A DNA stretch of 29,488 nt from a virus, in IMG/VR virus record IMGVR_UViG_3300032294_001328, positions 1-29,488 of that record; one strand, written 5' to 3'. The position numbers and the translations under genes are program-made. Under the pieces are notes generated by a model. It was not told where the DNA came from. It was given only the letters and a program-made list of their open reading frames with translations, and ran no database searches. Shown here piece by piece: positions 7,847-21,373 of this stretch. The first letter of the stretch is position 1. Each line of letters begins with the position of its first letter.

Positions 7847-9247
7847 ATGCCTATTATTGGTGGAAGACAAATTGGTGTAAGAGGTTTAGGTTTTCAGGGT
7901 GCTGGAAAGCCTAGTGCACCAATATCAGTTTCTGCTACCGATGTAGGAACAGGTCGTGCATTTAACAATGGCGCAATGAATATAACTTGGTCAGCACCTT
8001 CTTCAAATGGTGCACCAATTACTTCATATACTGTTTTATCTTCTCCAGGATCATTTACAGCAACAACATCTTCTACTTCTGCACAAATTACAGGACTACA
8101 ATCTTCTACACAGTATACTTTTACTGTTACCGCTACAAATGCAGTTGGAACATCTGATGCAAGTTCTGCTTCTACAGCAGTAACTGCAACTACGGTTCCA
8201 CAAGCACCTACTATTGGTACAGCAACTGCTGGAAACGCAAGCGCAACAGTTACTTACACAGCAAATGCAACAGGCGGTAAGGCAATATCTACGTTTACCG
8301 CAACTTCATCTCCTGGATCATTAACAGGAACAGGCGCTTCTCCAATTACCGTTTCAGGACTTTCTAATGGAACGGGATATACTTTTACAGTTACAGCAAC
8401 TAATGCTAATGGAACATCTACTGCAAGTGGTGCTTCTAACAGCGTAACTCCTGTTTTACCAAAACCTTCAAGCGTTGAATACCTTGTTGTTGCAGGTGGA
8501 AATTCAGGCGGTAGAGGCAGTGGTGCAGCCGCAGGTGGTGGAGGTGCAGGCGGTTTTAGAACATCAAACAGTTTTGCTGTTTCTGCAGGATCCGCACTTG
8601 AAGTAACCGTTGGCGCTGCTGGAAATAATTCTGTATTTTCATCTATCACCTCAGCAAGAGGCGGTAACGGTGGCGGAAACACATACTACACACCAGGAAG
8701 TGGAGGTTCTGGTGGCGGTGGTGGCTCAGGTGCTAACGCTACAGGTGCTGCTGGAAATACACCTGCTGTATCTCCTTCACAGGGAAATAATGGTGGTAAT
8801 GCCGCTCCTGGCTGGGGCGGCGGCGGCGGCGGTGCTGGTGCAGTTGGAGTGGCTGGGGTTTCAGGGGCTGCAGGTAACGGAGGCGCTGGAGCATCATCAT
8901 CAATTACTGGTTCTGCTGTAACTTATGCTGGTGGCGGCGGCGGTGGAAATACTAGTTCTTCTGGAGATCGAGCCTCCTTTGGCGGTACTGGAGGTGGAGG
9001 AAATGGTGGAATAGGCAACGGCACTGGAGTAACGTCAGGAAGTGTAAATACTGGAGGTGGAGGTGGAGGTTCAGGACCAACTAATCCTCCACCTGGAAAT
9101 GGTGGTTCAGGCGTAGTTATTATTGCTTATTCAGACTCTTTCGCTGCTCCAGCCTCTATTAGTGCTGGTTTAACATACGACACCCCAACACGCTCTGGTT
9201 TTAGAGTTTATAGGTTCTTGTCAGGAACAGGAACGGTGACATTCTAA
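7847..9247 (+). CDS. Fibronectin III / polyglycine adhesin, cassette B, 466 aa
   Basis: The N-terminus MPIIGGRQIGVRGLGFQGAG parallels the 5220 product. Two fibronectin III domains follow (about 22-108 and 110-196), then a polyglycine domain from EYLVVAGGNSGG near residue 212 to about 430. The C-terminal tail (about 430-466) contains GLTYDTPTRSGFRVYRFLSG, absent from the cassette A protein. Fibronectin parts are closely alike in DNA (for example 17 identical bases at 5598-5614 and 8204-8220), whereas the glycine regions are much less alike, as expected if the tips are under selection for host range. Inferred role: alternative receptor-binding adhesin. AAGGAG ribosome site; stop overlaps the next start. 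Confidence 0.75.
   Translation: MPIIGGRQIGVRGLGFQGAGKPSAPISVSATDVGTGRAFNNGAMNITWSAPSSNGAPITSYTVLSSPGSFTATTSSTSAQITGLQSSTQYTFTVTATNAVGTSDASSASTAVTATTVPQAPTIGTATAGNASATVTYTANATGGKAISTFTATSSPGSLTGTGASPITVSGLSNGTGYTFTVTATNANGTSTASGASNSVTPVLPKPSSVEYLVVAGGNSGGRGSGAAAGGGGAGGFRTSNSFAVSAGSALEVTVGAAGNNSVFSSITSARGGNGGGNTYYTPGSGGSGGGGGSGANATGAAGNTPAVSPSQGNNGGNAAPGWGGGGGGAGAVGVAGVSGAAGNGGAGASSSITGSAVTYAGGGGGGNTSSSGDRASFGGTGGGGNGGIGNGTGVTSGSVNTGGGGGGSGPTNPPPGNGGSGVVIIAYSDSFAAPASISAGLTYDTPTRSGFRVYRFLSGTGTVTF
8816..8832 (+). repeat. GGC tract in adhesin B
   Basis: Five GGC units plus GG encode part of a glycine run in the polyglycine domain. It is comparable to the tracts in the adhesins at 5220 and 11579. 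Confidence 0.55.
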
Positions 9248-9600
9248 TGGCGCACTACGCATTTATAGATACTAACAACATTGTTGTTGAAGTTATTACT
9301 GGTCGTAACGAAGATGAAATTGTAGATGGCATTTCCGATTGGGAAAAACACTATAATGAATTTCGCCCAGGTTTAAAGTGTATTCGAACTTCTTATAACA
9401 ATAATATCCGTAAAAATTTTGCTAGGATTGGATTCACATATGATGAAATTCTTGATGCATTTATACCACCAAAACAATTTAATTCTTGGATTTTAAATGA
9501 AGATACTTGTAGATGGGAAGCACCTACCCCATACCCAACAGACGGCGGTATGTATCAATGGGTAGAAGATGACCTTAATTGGCAATTAATAACACCATAG
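9247..9600 (+). CDS. Adhesin-associated small phage protein, cassette B, 117 aa
   Basis: This is a paralogue of the 6689 product. It starts MAHYAFIDTNNIVVEVITG and shares RKNFARIGFTYDEILDAFIP, the FNSWILNEDTCRWEAP segment, YPTDGGMYQW and LNWQ. It lacks about 13 residues between the start and the conserved centre. The position directly behind the second adhesin, with overlapping stop and start, repeats the cassette A order. Function is unassigned in the family; an adhesin partner or fibre-tip element is inferred from order. The -35 box of the sulfotransferase promoter starts two bases after its stop codon. Confidence 0.75.
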   Translation: MAHYAFIDTNNIVVEVITGRNEDEIVDGISDWEKHYNEFRPGLKCIRTSYNNNIRKNFARIGFTYDEILDAFIPPKQFNSWILNEDTCRWEAPTPYPTDGGMYQWVEDDLNWQLITP

Positions 9601-9601
9601 T

Positions 9602-9630
9602 TTGACAAACATTTTTCCATCTGCTATGCT
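9602..9630 (+). promoter_or_regulatory. Full sigma-70 promoter of the sulfotransferase gene
   Basis: TTGACA (9602-9607), a 17-base spacer and TATGCT (9625-9630) preceded by TGC form a strong promoter with both boxes. ATG follows six bases after the -10 box with no Shine-Dalgarno, so the mRNA is probably leaderless. This is the only plus-strand gene inside the fibre block with a consensus -35 box. Confidence 0.75.
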
Positions 9631-9636
9631 TATAGC

Positions 9637-10476
9637 ATGAATAAAACATATCATTTTTTAGCAGGTCTTCCAAGAAGCGGTAATACATTATTATCTGCTA
9701 TATTAAATCAAAATCCAGATATCTATAGTACTCCATTAAGTCCACTACCAAGCCTTATGTGGGATTTTGCAAACACTTGCAATACTGCAGAGCAAGTAAT
9801 TAGAAATACTGAAAATCAAATTAAATCAGAAATATTTCTATCATCATTTATGGATAACTACTACAAAGAAGTAGAAAAGCCAGTTGTTATTGATAGAGAA
9901 AAAGCATGGGGTACACCAGCAAATCTTAGCATTATTAAACAATATGTTACTCCAACTCCTAAGATTATTTTTACTGTTAGAGATATTTTAGAAATTATTG
10001 CATCTTTTATAAAGATGGATGCTAATTATTTAAAAAATGGAGCATACAATTCAAATTACTATATGGCCAACTACCGTTCTGAAAAAGACTTGGTAGCAGA
10101 ATTTCTAATGGAACCAAATGGAGATATAGGTAAAGGCCTTCTTTCTTTGGCATCTGCATTCTACCCAGAAAACAAGGGTATGTTTCATATTGTAGAATAC
10201 AATAATTTAGTATTTAATCCAGAAGAGACTATGGCTGGTATTTATGATTTCCTAGAAATGCCTCATTATCAGCATAACTTTAATAAAATCCAAAAAGTAG
10301 AAAAAGACAATGACGAGGTACTAGGACTTCCTAAAGACCTTCATGATATAAGAAAGTCCTTGTCTAATTCTTCTACTTCTATAGATATCCTCTCAGATTA
10401 TATAAAGCACAAATACTCTAATATGGAGTTTTGGAGAGATGGATCTACCATGAAAATCAGGGGTAGGGATTTCTAA
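9637..10476 (+). CDS. PAPS-dependent sulfotransferase, 279 aa
   Basis: Sulfotransferases move a sulfuryl group from 3'-phosphoadenosine 5'-phosphosulfate to a hydroxyl or amine. The 5'-phosphosulfate loop is seen at residues 10-19 (GLPRSGNTLL), and the 3'-phosphate site at Arg115 and Ser123 (FTVRDILEIIASF). The length and the strand-loop-helix order fit the family. The acceptor is unknown: a host surface glycan, a phage fibre or a metabolite are all possible. The gene stands alone between cassettes B and C with its own strong promoter and is AT-rich compared with its neighbours, the pattern of a moron (a gene added to a phage genome as an independent unit). The start is fixed by the leaderless spacing and by the loop lying ten residues in. 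Confidence 0.85.
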   Translation: MNKTYHFLAGLPRSGNTLLSAILNQNPDIYSTPLSPLPSLMWDFANTCNTAEQVIRNTENQIKSEIFLSSFMDNYYKEVEKPVVIDREKAWGTPANLSIIKQYVTPTPKIIFTVRDILEIIASFIKMDANYLKNGAYNSNYYMANYRSEKDLVAEFLMEPNGDIGKGLLSLASAFYPENKGMFHIVEYNNLVFNPEETMAGIYDFLEMPHYQHNFNKIQKVEKDNDEVLGLPKDLHDIRKSLSNSSTSIDILSDYIKHKYSNMEFWRDGSTMKIRGRDF

Positions 10477-10491
10477 CTACGCTGCCTTATA

Positions 10492-10500
10492 TGGTATAAT
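10492..10500 (+). promoter_or_regulatory. Extended -10 promoter TGGTATAAT, first of a tandem pair
   Basis: TGGTATAAT lies 16 bases after the sulfotransferase stop. Transcripts from here would have a leader of about 36 bases including TGAGGAGA and the stem-loop at 10513-10532 before ATG 10543. Confidence 0.55.
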
Positions 10501-10542: not shown

Positions 10543-11259
10543 ATGGCAATTACCTTTGATAATAGTGGCAAACCAACTTACATGTTCCAGGCTGGAGCAA
10601 CTTCTACTGATGGTGTTTGGTATGCCGTTGGTGCCAAGATTGATACCGCCGCAGGATACGAATGGGCTGGGGCACAAACATTTTTAAATACTGTAACTAC
10701 TGATGCTACTGTTATTTTAAAAGATGGTTTTAATAATTTTCTAAATCCTGCTGCTAGAGATGCTGCTTTAACAGCACCAGTTGCAGGTACTCTTGTTTTT
10801 GTAAGACAAGATGCTGGTGGGTCACCACTTAATCAAATTCAATTTTATAATGGTACTGCTTGGGTTGCAAATGATGGAGACATCAATGGTGTAACTGCAG
10901 GAACTGGTCTTTCAGGCGGCGGTACATCAGGAACAGTTACACTTTCTGTTGATACAACAGTAGTTGCAACAACAAGCAATACTCTTACAATGACAGGTAA
11001 GACACTTTCTGCTGCAACACTAACTGGAACACTTACCGCAGCATCAACATCTGGTGTAAATGGACAATACTTGCAAACAACTGGTACTGGCGTTCAATGG
11101 GCATCGGTTCCAGCGGGGTATTCAGCACCAACACTAGGATCAACAACAGTTACTTCTGGTGCAACTATTACAACAATTTCTGGTTTAACAGACATAGTAC
11201 TAAACGGGCCTGGCAGTGTAGCGGATGAACTTGCGCTACTACTAATGGGTGCGCTCTAA
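10543..11259 (+). CDS. Tail fibre protein, cassette C, 238 aa
   Basis: The N-terminal 60 residues (MAITFDNSGKPTYMFQAGAT) are unlike cassettes A and B. The middle includes a small domain with GTLVFVRQD and a QFYNGTAWVANDG strand pair, then a fibre-shaft segment DINGVTAGTGLSGGGTSGTV also found in the fibre at 18063. The C-terminus is Thr/Ser-rich beta structure ending in GPGSVADELALLLMGAL. Inference: a fibre or fibre-tip subunit, with the variable part around 90-110. It is read from a tandem pair of extended -10 boxes. The next gene starts 15 bases after its stop. Confidence 0.7.
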   Translation: MAITFDNSGKPTYMFQAGATSTDGVWYAVGAKIDTAAGYEWAGAQTFLNTVTTDATVILKDGFNNFLNPAARDAALTAPVAGTLVFVRQDAGGSPLNQIQFYNGTAWVANDGDINGVTAGTGLSGGGTSGTVTLSVDTTVVATTSNTLTMTGKTLSAATLTGTLTAASTSGVNGQYLQTTGTGVQWASVPAGYSAPTLGSTTVTSGATITTISGLTDIVLNGPGSVADELALLLMGAL

Positions 11260-12751: not shown

Positions 12752-13318
12752 TTAAATTAAATTATTGGGAAATCTCTTTAACCATTTGTAATGGGCACCC
12801 TTTTTATAGGATGACCATGCACTCCAATTAGTACCGCCCTTTGTCATGTGCAACACGACTTGAGCATTCTTAACTGGGCTAAAGAGTTCAGCATTTAAAT
12901 CAAGATTGAATTTGTCTTTACGATCTGGACCTAAATTACCTATCATGTTAATTTGGAAAATTCCATATGAAGAGTCTCCCGTATTAACGTTGCCATTGAA
13001 GGCAAAAGGGCGACCATTTGATTCCGCTTTGGCAACAGCCCAAGCAGTCTTTAGTCCTTGTCCCTTAAATCCAACGGCTTTCAGTAATTCAACCAACTGG
13101 CTGTCAGTCAAACTTGTAGCGTCCGCATACTTAGCAAGCACCACATCAGTAGTAGGCTTAGAAAGCAAAAAAGCCGCTTTGTCGGCGGCAGGTTGGCTTA
13201 CGGCAGTACTACTTAGTAAATTGTTCTTTGTAGCATGTGCAGCACTTAGACCATTATTTAATAATGTTAAAGTAAGCAATGTTACAAGAACCCCCGATAG
13301 TATTTTGTTGTCTCTCAA
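12752..13318 (-). CDS. Secreted lysozyme-like/transglycosylase lysin, 188 aa
   Basis: A signal peptide or membrane anchor occupies about residues 7-29 (ILSGVLVTLLTLTLL, possible cleavage after SAAHA). A linker follows, then a lysozyme-superfamily domain (about 75-180). The likely catalytic Glu99 lies in AVAKAESNG, followed by SSYGIFQIN (117-124), characteristic of transglycosylase/lysozyme folds, and aromatic NWSAWSSY near the end. It would cut peptidoglycan between MurNAc and GlcNAc, for lysis or entry. The start is TTG at 13318, supported by AGGAGG six bases upstream and by the signal peptide. It is the only reverse-strand gene in the fibre block, with a full promoter and a terminator of its own. 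The signal sequence suggests Sec export rather than holin-dependent release. Confidence 0.85.
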   Translation of the reverse strand: MRDNKILSGVLVTLLTLTLLNNGLSAAHATKNNLLSSTAVSQPAADKAAFLLSKPTTDVVLAKYADATSLTDSQLVELLKAVGFKGQGLKTAWAVAKAESNGRPFAFNGNVNTGDSSYGIFQINMIGNLGPDRKDKFNLDLNAELFSPVKNAQVVLHMTKGGTNWSAWSSYKKGAHYKWLKRFPNNLI

Positions 13319-19345: not shown

Positions 19346-21373
19346 ATGTCAGATATCTTTTCTTTTCGTTTGTTAGATGATTTTATTGCAAAATACAAGG
19401 AGACTGCTCCTCCGTTTGGCTTTACAGACGCAGGCAATAACTCTTTAGGAGAAATCACTTTCATTCGTACCTATTCTAGAATCAAGGAAGACGGAACAAA
19501 AGAAAGATGGCATGAGGTTTGTAAGCGTGTAATTGAGGGGATGTACTCAGTTCAAAAAAACCATGCGAAGGAAAACAGACTTCCTTGGAATGATAACAAG
19601 GCTCAAAAGTCTGCACAAGAAGCCTATGAGCGTATGTTCAATCTTAAGTGGACTCCACCAGGTCGTGGTATGTGGACATTTGGTACACACATGACTATGG
19701 AAAAAAAGAACTCTGCAGCATTGCAAAATTGTGCAATGGTTTCTACTCGTGATATTGATCGTAATGACCCTGGTGCATTATTTGCATGGGTTATGGATGC
19801 ATTAATGCTAGGTATTGGAGTTGGATTTGATACCGTCGGTGCTGACAAAGAATATCCAATTTATGCACCAACAGAGCCAGTCTCTACATATCAAATTCCA
19901 GACACCCGTGAAGGATGGGTTGAATCTGTTAGATTCTTGTTAAATTCCTTTTTAAGGCCAAATCAGAATATTCAGGAGTTTGACTACTCTGTGATCCGTC
20001 CTCTAGGTGCCCCTATTAAGGGCTTTGGAGGGGTTGCAAGCGGTCCACAGCCATTGATTGACCTCCATACACGTATTCGTAAAGTTATTGGCGGTAGAGC
20101 AGGAGAGAAGTTAGATTCTCGTGCAATTACAGACATTGTAAACCTTATCGGTACATGTGTTGTTTCTGGAAATGTACGTCGTTCTGCAACACTTGCTTTG
20201 GGTGCACCAGGAGATCAAGATTTTATTAATCTAAAAAATGCAGAAGCATTTCCTGAAAGAAACTCATTTGATCCAGAAAACCCAGGTTGGGCATGGATGT
20301 CTAATAATTCTATTTCTGCAAACGTAGGAATGGATTATGAAAAATATGTAGATTTAATTGTTGATAATGGAGAGCCAGGTTTTATTTGGCTTGATGTTGC
20401 CAGGAATTATGGTCGACTAAAAGATCCAGCAGACGGAAAAGACTTCCGTGTAATGGGCTTCAATCCTTGTGCGGAGCAGCCATTGGAATCATACGAACTT
20501 TGTACACTTGTAGAAGTGCACTTGAATCGTCATGAAACTAAGGAAGACTTCCTCAAGACATTGAAGTTTGCATATCTTTATGGAAAGACTGTAACTCTAC
20601 TTCCAACACATTGGCAGCAGACAAACGGTATCATGCAACGCAATCGTCGTATTGGAACATCTCTAACAGGTATTGCATCTTTTGCAGATGAAAGAGGACT
20701 TCCAACAACTCGTGAGTGGATGGATGAAGGCTATGAAAAGATTCGCCACTACGACCACAAGTATTCAGAGTGGCTATGTGTACGTGAATCAATTCGTGTA
20801 ACAACAGTAAAGCCATCAGGTTCTGTTTCAATTCTTTCTGGCGCAACACCTGGAGTTCACTGGGGACCAGGAGGAGAATACTTCCTACGTGCTATTCGTT
20901 TTGGTGAAACAGATCCAATGCTTCATTTATTTAAAGCAGCGGGGTACAAGATTGAAAAAGATCTTGTATCAGCAAATACTCAAGTAGTATATTTCCCAGT
21001 ACATTCAGGACATCCACGTTCTGAGAAGGATGTAACATTATTTGAAAAGATTGCTCTTGCTGCAACTGCTCAAAAGTATTGGTCAGATAATGGTGTTTCC
21101 GTTACCCTTTCATTTGATAAAGAAACAGAGGCAAAGCATGTTGCTCCAGCACTTCATATGTATGAGGGACAACTAAAGGCGGTATCATTTTTACCAATGG
21201 GAAATACCGTTTATCCTCAACAGCCATATACCCAGATTACAAGAGAAGAGTATGAAGCACATCTTGGTCAAATTAAAAAGATTAATTGGGATGCAATCTA
21301 TGATGGCGTTGGCAACCTTGAGGCTATGGGCGAGGCATATTGCACCACAGATGTGTGCGAAATAAAACTCTAA
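19346..21373 (+). CDS. nrdJ: Adenosylcobalamin-dependent ribonucleoside-triphosphate reductase (class II), 675 aa
   Basis: Class II reductase turns ribonucleotides into deoxyribonucleotides using a cobalamin-generated thiyl radical. Seen here are Cys129 (LQNCAMV) and Cys386 (LCTL) as the reducing pair and Cys375 with Glu377 in NPCAEQ as radical site. The 375-386 spacing equals that of the monomeric Lactobacillus-type enzyme. The phosphate-binding loop TVKPSGSVSILSGATPG lies near 487-503, and Cys666 with Cys671 in CTTDVC acts as the C-terminal re-reduction pair. All key residues are present and the length is a little below the monomeric family, so it should be active. The start has GAGAGG upstream. 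It lies inside the structural region, unusual for a nucleotide-metabolism gene, behind its own promoter. Host cobalamin is needed. Confidence 0.93.
   Translation: MSDIFSFRLLDDFIAKYKETAPPFGFTDAGNNSLGEITFIRTYSRIKEDGTKERWHEVCKRVIEGMYSVQKNHAKENRLPWNDNKAQKSAQEAYERMFNLKWTPPGRGMWTFGTHMTMEKKNSAALQNCAMVSTRDIDRNDPGALFAWVMDALMLGIGVGFDTVGADKEYPIYAPTEPVSTYQIPDTREGWVESVRFLLNSFLRPNQNIQEFDYSVIRPLGAPIKGFGGVASGPQPLIDLHTRIRKVIGGRAGEKLDSRAITDIVNLIGTCVVSGNVRRSATLALGAPGDQDFINLKNAEAFPERNSFDPENPGWAWMSNNSISANVGMDYEKYVDLIVDNGEPGFIWLDVARNYGRLKDPADGKDFRVMGFNPCAEQPLESYELCTLVEVHLNRHETKEDFLKTLKFAYLYGKTVTLLPTHWQQTNGIMQRNRRIGTSLTGIASFADERGLPTTREWMDEGYEKIRHYDHKYSEWLCVRESIRVTTVKPSGSVSILSGATPGVHWGPGGEYFLRAIRFGETDPMLHLFKAAGYKIEKDLVSANTQVVYFPVHSGHPRSEKDVTLFEKIALAATAQKYWSDNGVSVTLSFDKETEAKHVAPALHMYEGQLKAVSFLPMGNTVYPQQPYTQITREEYEAHLGQIKKINWDAIYDGVGNLEAMGEAYCTTDVCEIKL

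Follow-up and report, generated by a model that had tools for sequence, protein, structure and literature searches.

A conserved sulfotransferase gene within an exchangeable adhesin module of a freshwater phage, with cousins beside giant adhesin genes in bacteria

The window examined here is the whole 29,488-base stretch of freshwater phage DNA in a virus record, and the gene of interest lies in its fibre block, where the original prediction had placed it, preceded by an adhesin gene with its partner and followed by a fibre gene. The relevant features are as follows:

7847..9247, plus strand: fn3 and Gly-rich adhesin (PF00041, PF21722), directly upstream, its distal half from about 8439 exchanged
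9247..9600, plus strand: phrog_7759 adhesin partner (possibly a fibre accessory or chaperone), in the exchanged block
9602..9630, plus strand: promoter TTGACA-N17-TATGCT with an extended -10 (TGCTATGCT), of which relatives keep just the extended -10
9637..10476, plus strand: sulfotransferase, 279 aa, recognized by GLPRSGNTLL, R115...S123, Pfam, PHROG, fold and alignments
8439..10490, no strand: block replaced between the window and its sister G001, with its right edge shortly before the TGGTATAAT promoter at 10492
10543..11259, plus strand: downstream fibre gene, at whose promoter synteny with the sisters resumes

The sulfotransferase gene had been described as sitting alone, which holds within the window but not among relatives, where three loci (L002, L008 and L027) carry 2–3 copies per phage. 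Portal and capsid proteins are nearest to those of Streptomyces phages (~42–45% identity), so an actinobacterial host is likely from these sequence comparisons. Between the fibre and portal genes stands a ribonucleotide reductase gene (19346–21373), which occupies the same place in relatives.

Evaluating the 279-aa ORF against protein families, we found matches to Sulfotransfer_3 (PF13469; 1.1e-15, 58.9 bits against a cut-off of 27) and Sulfotransfer_1 (PF00685; 3.8e-11, 43.3 bits against a cut-off of 22), as well as a full-length match (residues 1–278, 1.2e-95) to PHROG_27463, a family annotated as being of ‘unknown function’. The ORF is intact and both donor-site motifs are present, the 5'-PSB as GLPRSGNTLL at residues 10–19 and the 3'-PB as R115...S123, with a KYSNMEFWR signature in the C-terminal part, all of which bears out the proposal of a complete PAPS-binding sulfotransferase. 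Checking relatives for loss of the key PAPS residues, we found them kept: R13, R115 and S123 are invariant in 111/111 aligned sequences (32 phage and 79 bacterial), T17, D226, H236 and W91 are likewise invariant across this set, and the freshwater copies are under purifying selection (median dN/dS 0.13, maximum 0.26, 123 pairs). Together, the invariant donor site and purifying selection indicate that the gene is maintained and its PAPS site intact, and we conclude that the ORF is a conserved PAPS-type sulfotransferase whose activity is predicted from sequence and structural model.

An AlphaFold2 model built from sequences of relatives (pLDDT 90.1, pTM 0.89) placed sulfotransferases at the top of its PDB fold matches, led by human and tick TPST1/TPST2 (E down to 1.5e-8, TM 0.5–0.6) and followed by heparan-sulfate sulfotransferases, while its top viral fold match was the S-SCSM1 sulfotransferase (TM 0.75). 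Sequence searches of solved structures also returned protein-tyrosine sulfotransferases as nearest, at E ~1e-3 for a single protein query, and a 30-member profile matched TPST1 at 7e-14. Although these are the nearest solved folds and profile matches, the window enzyme shares only 14–18% identity with TPST1/TPST2, does not conserve their catalytic Glu region, and has no Golgi or secretory context. Specifically, the TPST catalytic Glu (loop after strand 2) has no counterpart, the aligned residues being Ser, Thr or Pro, with S35 invariant in phage members at that place. Between the two PAPS motifs, 28/32 phage and 69/79 bacterial members have a Glu at position 52 or one column away, and D86 is near-invariant; E52, D86, D226 and H236 are candidate catalytic bases from conservation. 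That no His or Glu equivalent to the TPST base is fixed at the aligned position would suit a fold relative that has left sulfotransferase chemistry behind and serves to bind PAP or another nucleotide, or as a structural accessory, but the donor-site residues are all invariant in phage and bacterial members alike and APS-kinase genes cluster with the bacterial members, and we regard such a loss of chemistry as unlikely.

We then considered the promoter, for which the original prediction had claimed a class unlike that of its neighbours, the greatest strength in the fibre block, and possible early expression. The element itself is present at 9602–9630, and the start codon lies 6 nt past the -10, making a leaderless message plausible, in keeping with an extended -10 (TGNTANNNT) found 3–9 nt before the ATG in 16/22 freshwater copies (shuffles: mean 0.37, maximum 3). 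The remaining claims fared less well. A -35 matching at least 5/6 positions occurs in just 5/22 of these copies, so that TTGACA is not conserved, and sigma-70-like sites in the first 20 kb of the window occur at the chance rate (59 against 59.3 in shuffles), the best-scoring of them being an 11/12 promoter-like site on the opposite strand before the endolysin gene, which together leave little to the idea of an exceptionally strong promoter. The endolysin is lysozyme-like (SLT_3; 12752–13318, minus strand) and is encoded inside the fibre block behind that site. As for class, the extended -10 TGnTATAAT occurs 14 times on the plus strand and once on the other, ahead of structural and fibre genes throughout the window, in many cases 6–9 nt before an ATG (1163, 1974, 2562, 10543, 13452, 14588, 27096), and this recurrence suggests that many structural transcripts may be leaderless. 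Positions recorded for the motif in the window are 1148, 1956, 2545, 4015, 7084, 10527, 13434, 14572, 18031, 21376 and 27078. Sharing the extended -10 with structural genes argues for co-regulation of the sulfotransferase gene with them rather than for an early foreign unit; early expression is thus unsupported, and we rejected the promoter as a sign of a separate transcription class.

Composition gave a similarly ordinary picture, with a GC3 of 0.229 for the sulfotransferase gene and 0.18–0.27 for its neighbours, and recent acquisition was rejected on this measure. In G001, a sister phage whose portal is 99% identical to that of the window phage, the left flank matches at 88% as far as position 8439 within the adhesin, and the match returns at 92.5% from 10490, the right-hand breakpoint falling at the TGGTATAAT promoter. 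The G001 block between these points carries a different adhesin distal half with two phrog_7759-like partners, a 249-aa phrog_7084-like ORF, and a 184-aa ORF with FPRSGSTFL and VPFRNPEESIAS motifs. This last ORF matches PF00685 below threshold (E = 0.0012), resembles A1 in the P-loop only, and yields an AlphaFold2 model with a pLDDT of 37.5, and because of these sub-threshold profile matches and the poor model we call it ‘sulfotransferase-like’ and no more. Proteins of the phrog_7084 type (~240 aa) recur in the sulfotransferase slot, both in G001 and at L019:4384-5103, L019:5103-5801 and L009:5802-6476. A second sister, G002 (portal 93%), has the slot without any gene, indicating that the enzyme is dispensable.

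The replacement in G001 means that adhesin tip, partner and enzyme have been exchanged as one unit, and on these genome comparisons the sulfotransferase gene is part of an exchangeable adhesin module and probably no solitary moron. A recently acquired moron with its own strong early promoter, as first proposed, would fit a gene that has its own promoter, is absent from sisters and is present patchily (a family match in 3/30 portal-relative records); yet the promoter is of the neighbours' class and its -35 is not conserved, GC3 is like that of the neighbours, the freshwater genes cluster in a single, supported clade of phage genes, and the gene moves with the distal half of the adhesin. We consider that reading highly improbable.

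To place the gene among its phage relatives, we drew on a viral-contig scan that yielded 47 sulfotransferase loci at 33–77% identity. Freshwater phage sulfotransferases formed one clade in the tree (support 0.93), and in the loci mapped for this clade the gene lies in the fibre block. A Gly-rich ORF ends no more than 1 kb upstream in 16/19 unique freshwater loci, as opposed to 13/53 for other genes taken as controls from the same loci (p = 1.4e-5). Some more distant phage relatives are placed differently: the S-SCSM1 homologue lies between an exonuclease and an HNH gene, and the S-SRM01 homologue adjoins a glycosyltransferase and a nucleotide-sugar epimerase. Among other genes seen in fibre blocks with the sulfotransferase are a GT61 glycosyltransferase(-like) gene (L002:402-1334) and one for a DUF6445 protein that adjoins the sulfotransferase (L029:5397-6005).

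Several of these phages may also carry genes for donor supply, as an APS-kinase-like/nucleotidyltransferase gene lies just downstream of the sulfotransferase in L019, L020, L026 and L027. Three of these (L019:7184-7936, L026:7782-8534 and L027:9764-10522) are APS-kinase-like and cytidylyltransferase-like fusions of PHROG_10255 in one phage lineage. Phage PAPS supply as a general partner of the sulfotransferase was nonetheless rejected: the APS-kinase-like gene is abundant in phages lacking a sulfotransferase (at least 599 contigs; a strong match in ~21 of the 80 best loci, and mostly none in those more distant), and it matches just the first 91/152 APS-kinase positions, for which reasons we treat the partnership as a lineage-specific possibility. 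These observations bear on a metabolic reading, in which the sulfotransferase would serve as an auxiliary metabolic gene, acting on a metabolite of the host or draining or recycling PAPS. Sulfotransferases do figure among virome auxiliary metabolic genes (PMC8290583), and the adjoining APS-kinase-like gene in some phages would suit such a role, but that gene is common in phages lacking the sulfotransferase, essentially all freshwater relatives keep the enzyme in the adhesin block, it is exchanged together with the adhesin module, and its bacterial relatives sit in adhesin operons. Such a small-molecule role is therefore improbable.

Those bacterial relatives were recovered in number by profile search. 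An ORF of at least 1000 aa lies within 600 nt downstream in 50 of the 62 bacterial loci with enough sequence, against 113/1528 (7%) in the control. These giant ORFs usually encode 2000–3000 aa and usually overlap the sulfotransferase gene or lie no more than 50 nt from it, and the adjacency occurs in 16/28 genus-like groups, including ones with Bacteroidota and Verrucomicrobiota names; the 80 bacterial loci at hand are best-scoring matches and not a random sample, with Pseudomonas over-represented. In four giants that we sampled, the domains are of the DUF4347, Ig-like, fn3, cadherin-like, autotransporter or RTX types. Also near the bacterial sulfotransferases are genes for tail-collar, TolC and Asp/Asn-hydroxylase proteins. 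An APS-kinase gene lies within 10 kb in 22/62 loci, where ~0.4 would be expected from whole-genome counts. In the tree, most adhesin-operon sulfotransferases of bacteria form a sister clade to the phage clade, such that what they suggest for the phage enzyme comes by cousinship. Two further loci-level observations concern related chemistry and its distribution. A 617-aa protein (L049:10831-12681; L050 and L052 have ORFs like it) fuses an Asp/Asn beta-hydroxylase domain to Sulfotransfer_3 and adjoins a PHROG_27463-type sulfotransferase (in L049 an APS kinase as well), from which domain arrangement a hydroxylate-then-sulfate chemistry is possible. Separately, L061, a Patescibacteria locus from a 0.8 Mb genome, keeps both a sulfotransferase of the same family and an APS kinase.

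Taking phage and bacterial evidence together, we hypothesize that the enzyme is a PAPS-dependent O-sulfotransferase of TPST-like fold that sulfates the phage's own adhesin or fibre during late expression, a proposal to which we give about an even chance. Under it, the sulfotransferase would be produced together with the late structural genes, and sulfation would take place inside the infected cell, with PAPS as donor, before virion release. The acceptor would be a tail adhesin or fibre, most likely the neighbouring Gly-rich adhesin or the phrog_7759 partner. Adhesin distal half, partner and sulfotransferase would be inherited together as a module, so that a swap of the receptor-binding tip would also swap its modification enzyme. 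Of this account, that the enzyme is active, that it is made late, which protein and residue it modifies and how adsorption would be affected are inferences. Adhesin sulfation explains the late-type promoter, the adhesin linkage, the block exchange and the bacterial operons, and the earlier suggestion that the enzyme might modify the phage's own fibre gains independent support from relatives, through adhesin linkage and module exchange. Several observations weigh on the other side: the adhesin-operon members from bacteria belong for the most part to a sister clade and are not direct relatives of the phage clade, the TPST catalytic Glu lacks a conserved counterpart where the sequences align, the S-SCSM1 and S-SRM01 relatives sit elsewhere than beside fibres, the empty slot in G002 marks the enzyme as dispensable, and APS kinase is found as a strong match (E < 1e-20) in only 73/149 sampled Actinomycetota.

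What holds adhesin sulfation at an even chance is that glycan masking would account for the linkage too and is favoured by the S-SRM01 neighbours, and that S-SCSM1 shows the family can lie away from fibres. Under masking, the enzyme would sulfate a glycan of the host envelope in the course of infection and so change the receptor, which would block superinfection or the re-adsorption of progeny to debris; it would travel with the adhesin since both have to fit one and the same receptor, making co-exchange with the adhesin tip equally expected. Fibre blocks also collect host-range and receptor-masking genes, and the glycosyltransferase and epimerase beside the S-SRM01 homologue, the GT61-like gene in the L002 fibre block and the heparan-sulfate sulfotransferases as next fold neighbours are in line with glycan work. 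However, the promoter is of the structural-gene class while masking is best done early, the nearest folds are protein enzymes (TPST) and not glycan enzymes, and the bacterial relatives go with giant secreted proteins, no glycan operon having been seen around them, which leaves sulfation of host glycans a rather doubtful account. Returning to adhesin sulfation and extending it across the family, we tentatively propose, at somewhat below an even chance for the whole, a general system in phages and bacteria in which a dedicated sulfotransferase post-translationally sulfates giant extracellular and phage tail adhesins, often with local PAPS synthesis and sometimes with an Asp/Asn hydroxylase, and in which the phage enzyme is exchanged with the receptor-binding tip and unrelated short sulfotransferase-like genes can fill its slot.

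A described parallel by arrangement is RaxST of the Xanthomonas raxX-raxSTAB cluster, a PAPS-dependent tyrosylprotein sulfotransferase modelled on TPST2, with Arg and Ser conserved in its two PAPS motifs, whose gene adjoins those for secretion and for the secreted protein that it modifies (PMC6637879). The likeness lies in that description, namely a bacterial PAPS-dependent enzyme with its gene beside a secreted substrate; the RaxST substrate is a 60-residue peptide, whereas the neighbours in the window and its relatives are phage fibres or giant adhesins, and neither a raxX peptide nor raxAB is among the fibre genes that surround the window sulfotransferase. Among phages, the PHROG_27463 sulfotransferases of Synechococcus phages S-SKS1 and S-SRM01 and of marine SAG viruses belong to the same family over their full length and carry the same P-loop and 3'-PB motifs, but these cyanophage and marine members are just 26–40% identical to the window enzyme, and some cyanophage copies are not beside fibres, whereas those of the freshwater phages group in a separate clade with a link to Gly-rich adhesins. 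OM43 phages, likewise aquatic, have Sulfotransfer_3 genes related to that of S-SRM01, the function of which is called unclear, and no adhesin linkage is reported in the available part of that paper (PMC10580990). Searching the open-licence literature, we found no paper on a sulfotransferase with DUF4347 or on fibre sulfation.

Sulfotransferases recur in aquatic phage genomes with a role described as unclear (PMC10580990). What is new here is the link of a phage sulfotransferase with tail adhesins, and of its bacterial cousins with operons for giant adhesins, from which a specific prediction follows: virion adhesins and giant surface proteins would carry sulfated residues. If true, protein sulfation in bacteria would extend far past the RaxX peptide, and chemical modification of phage receptor-binding proteins would constitute a new layer of host-range evolution.
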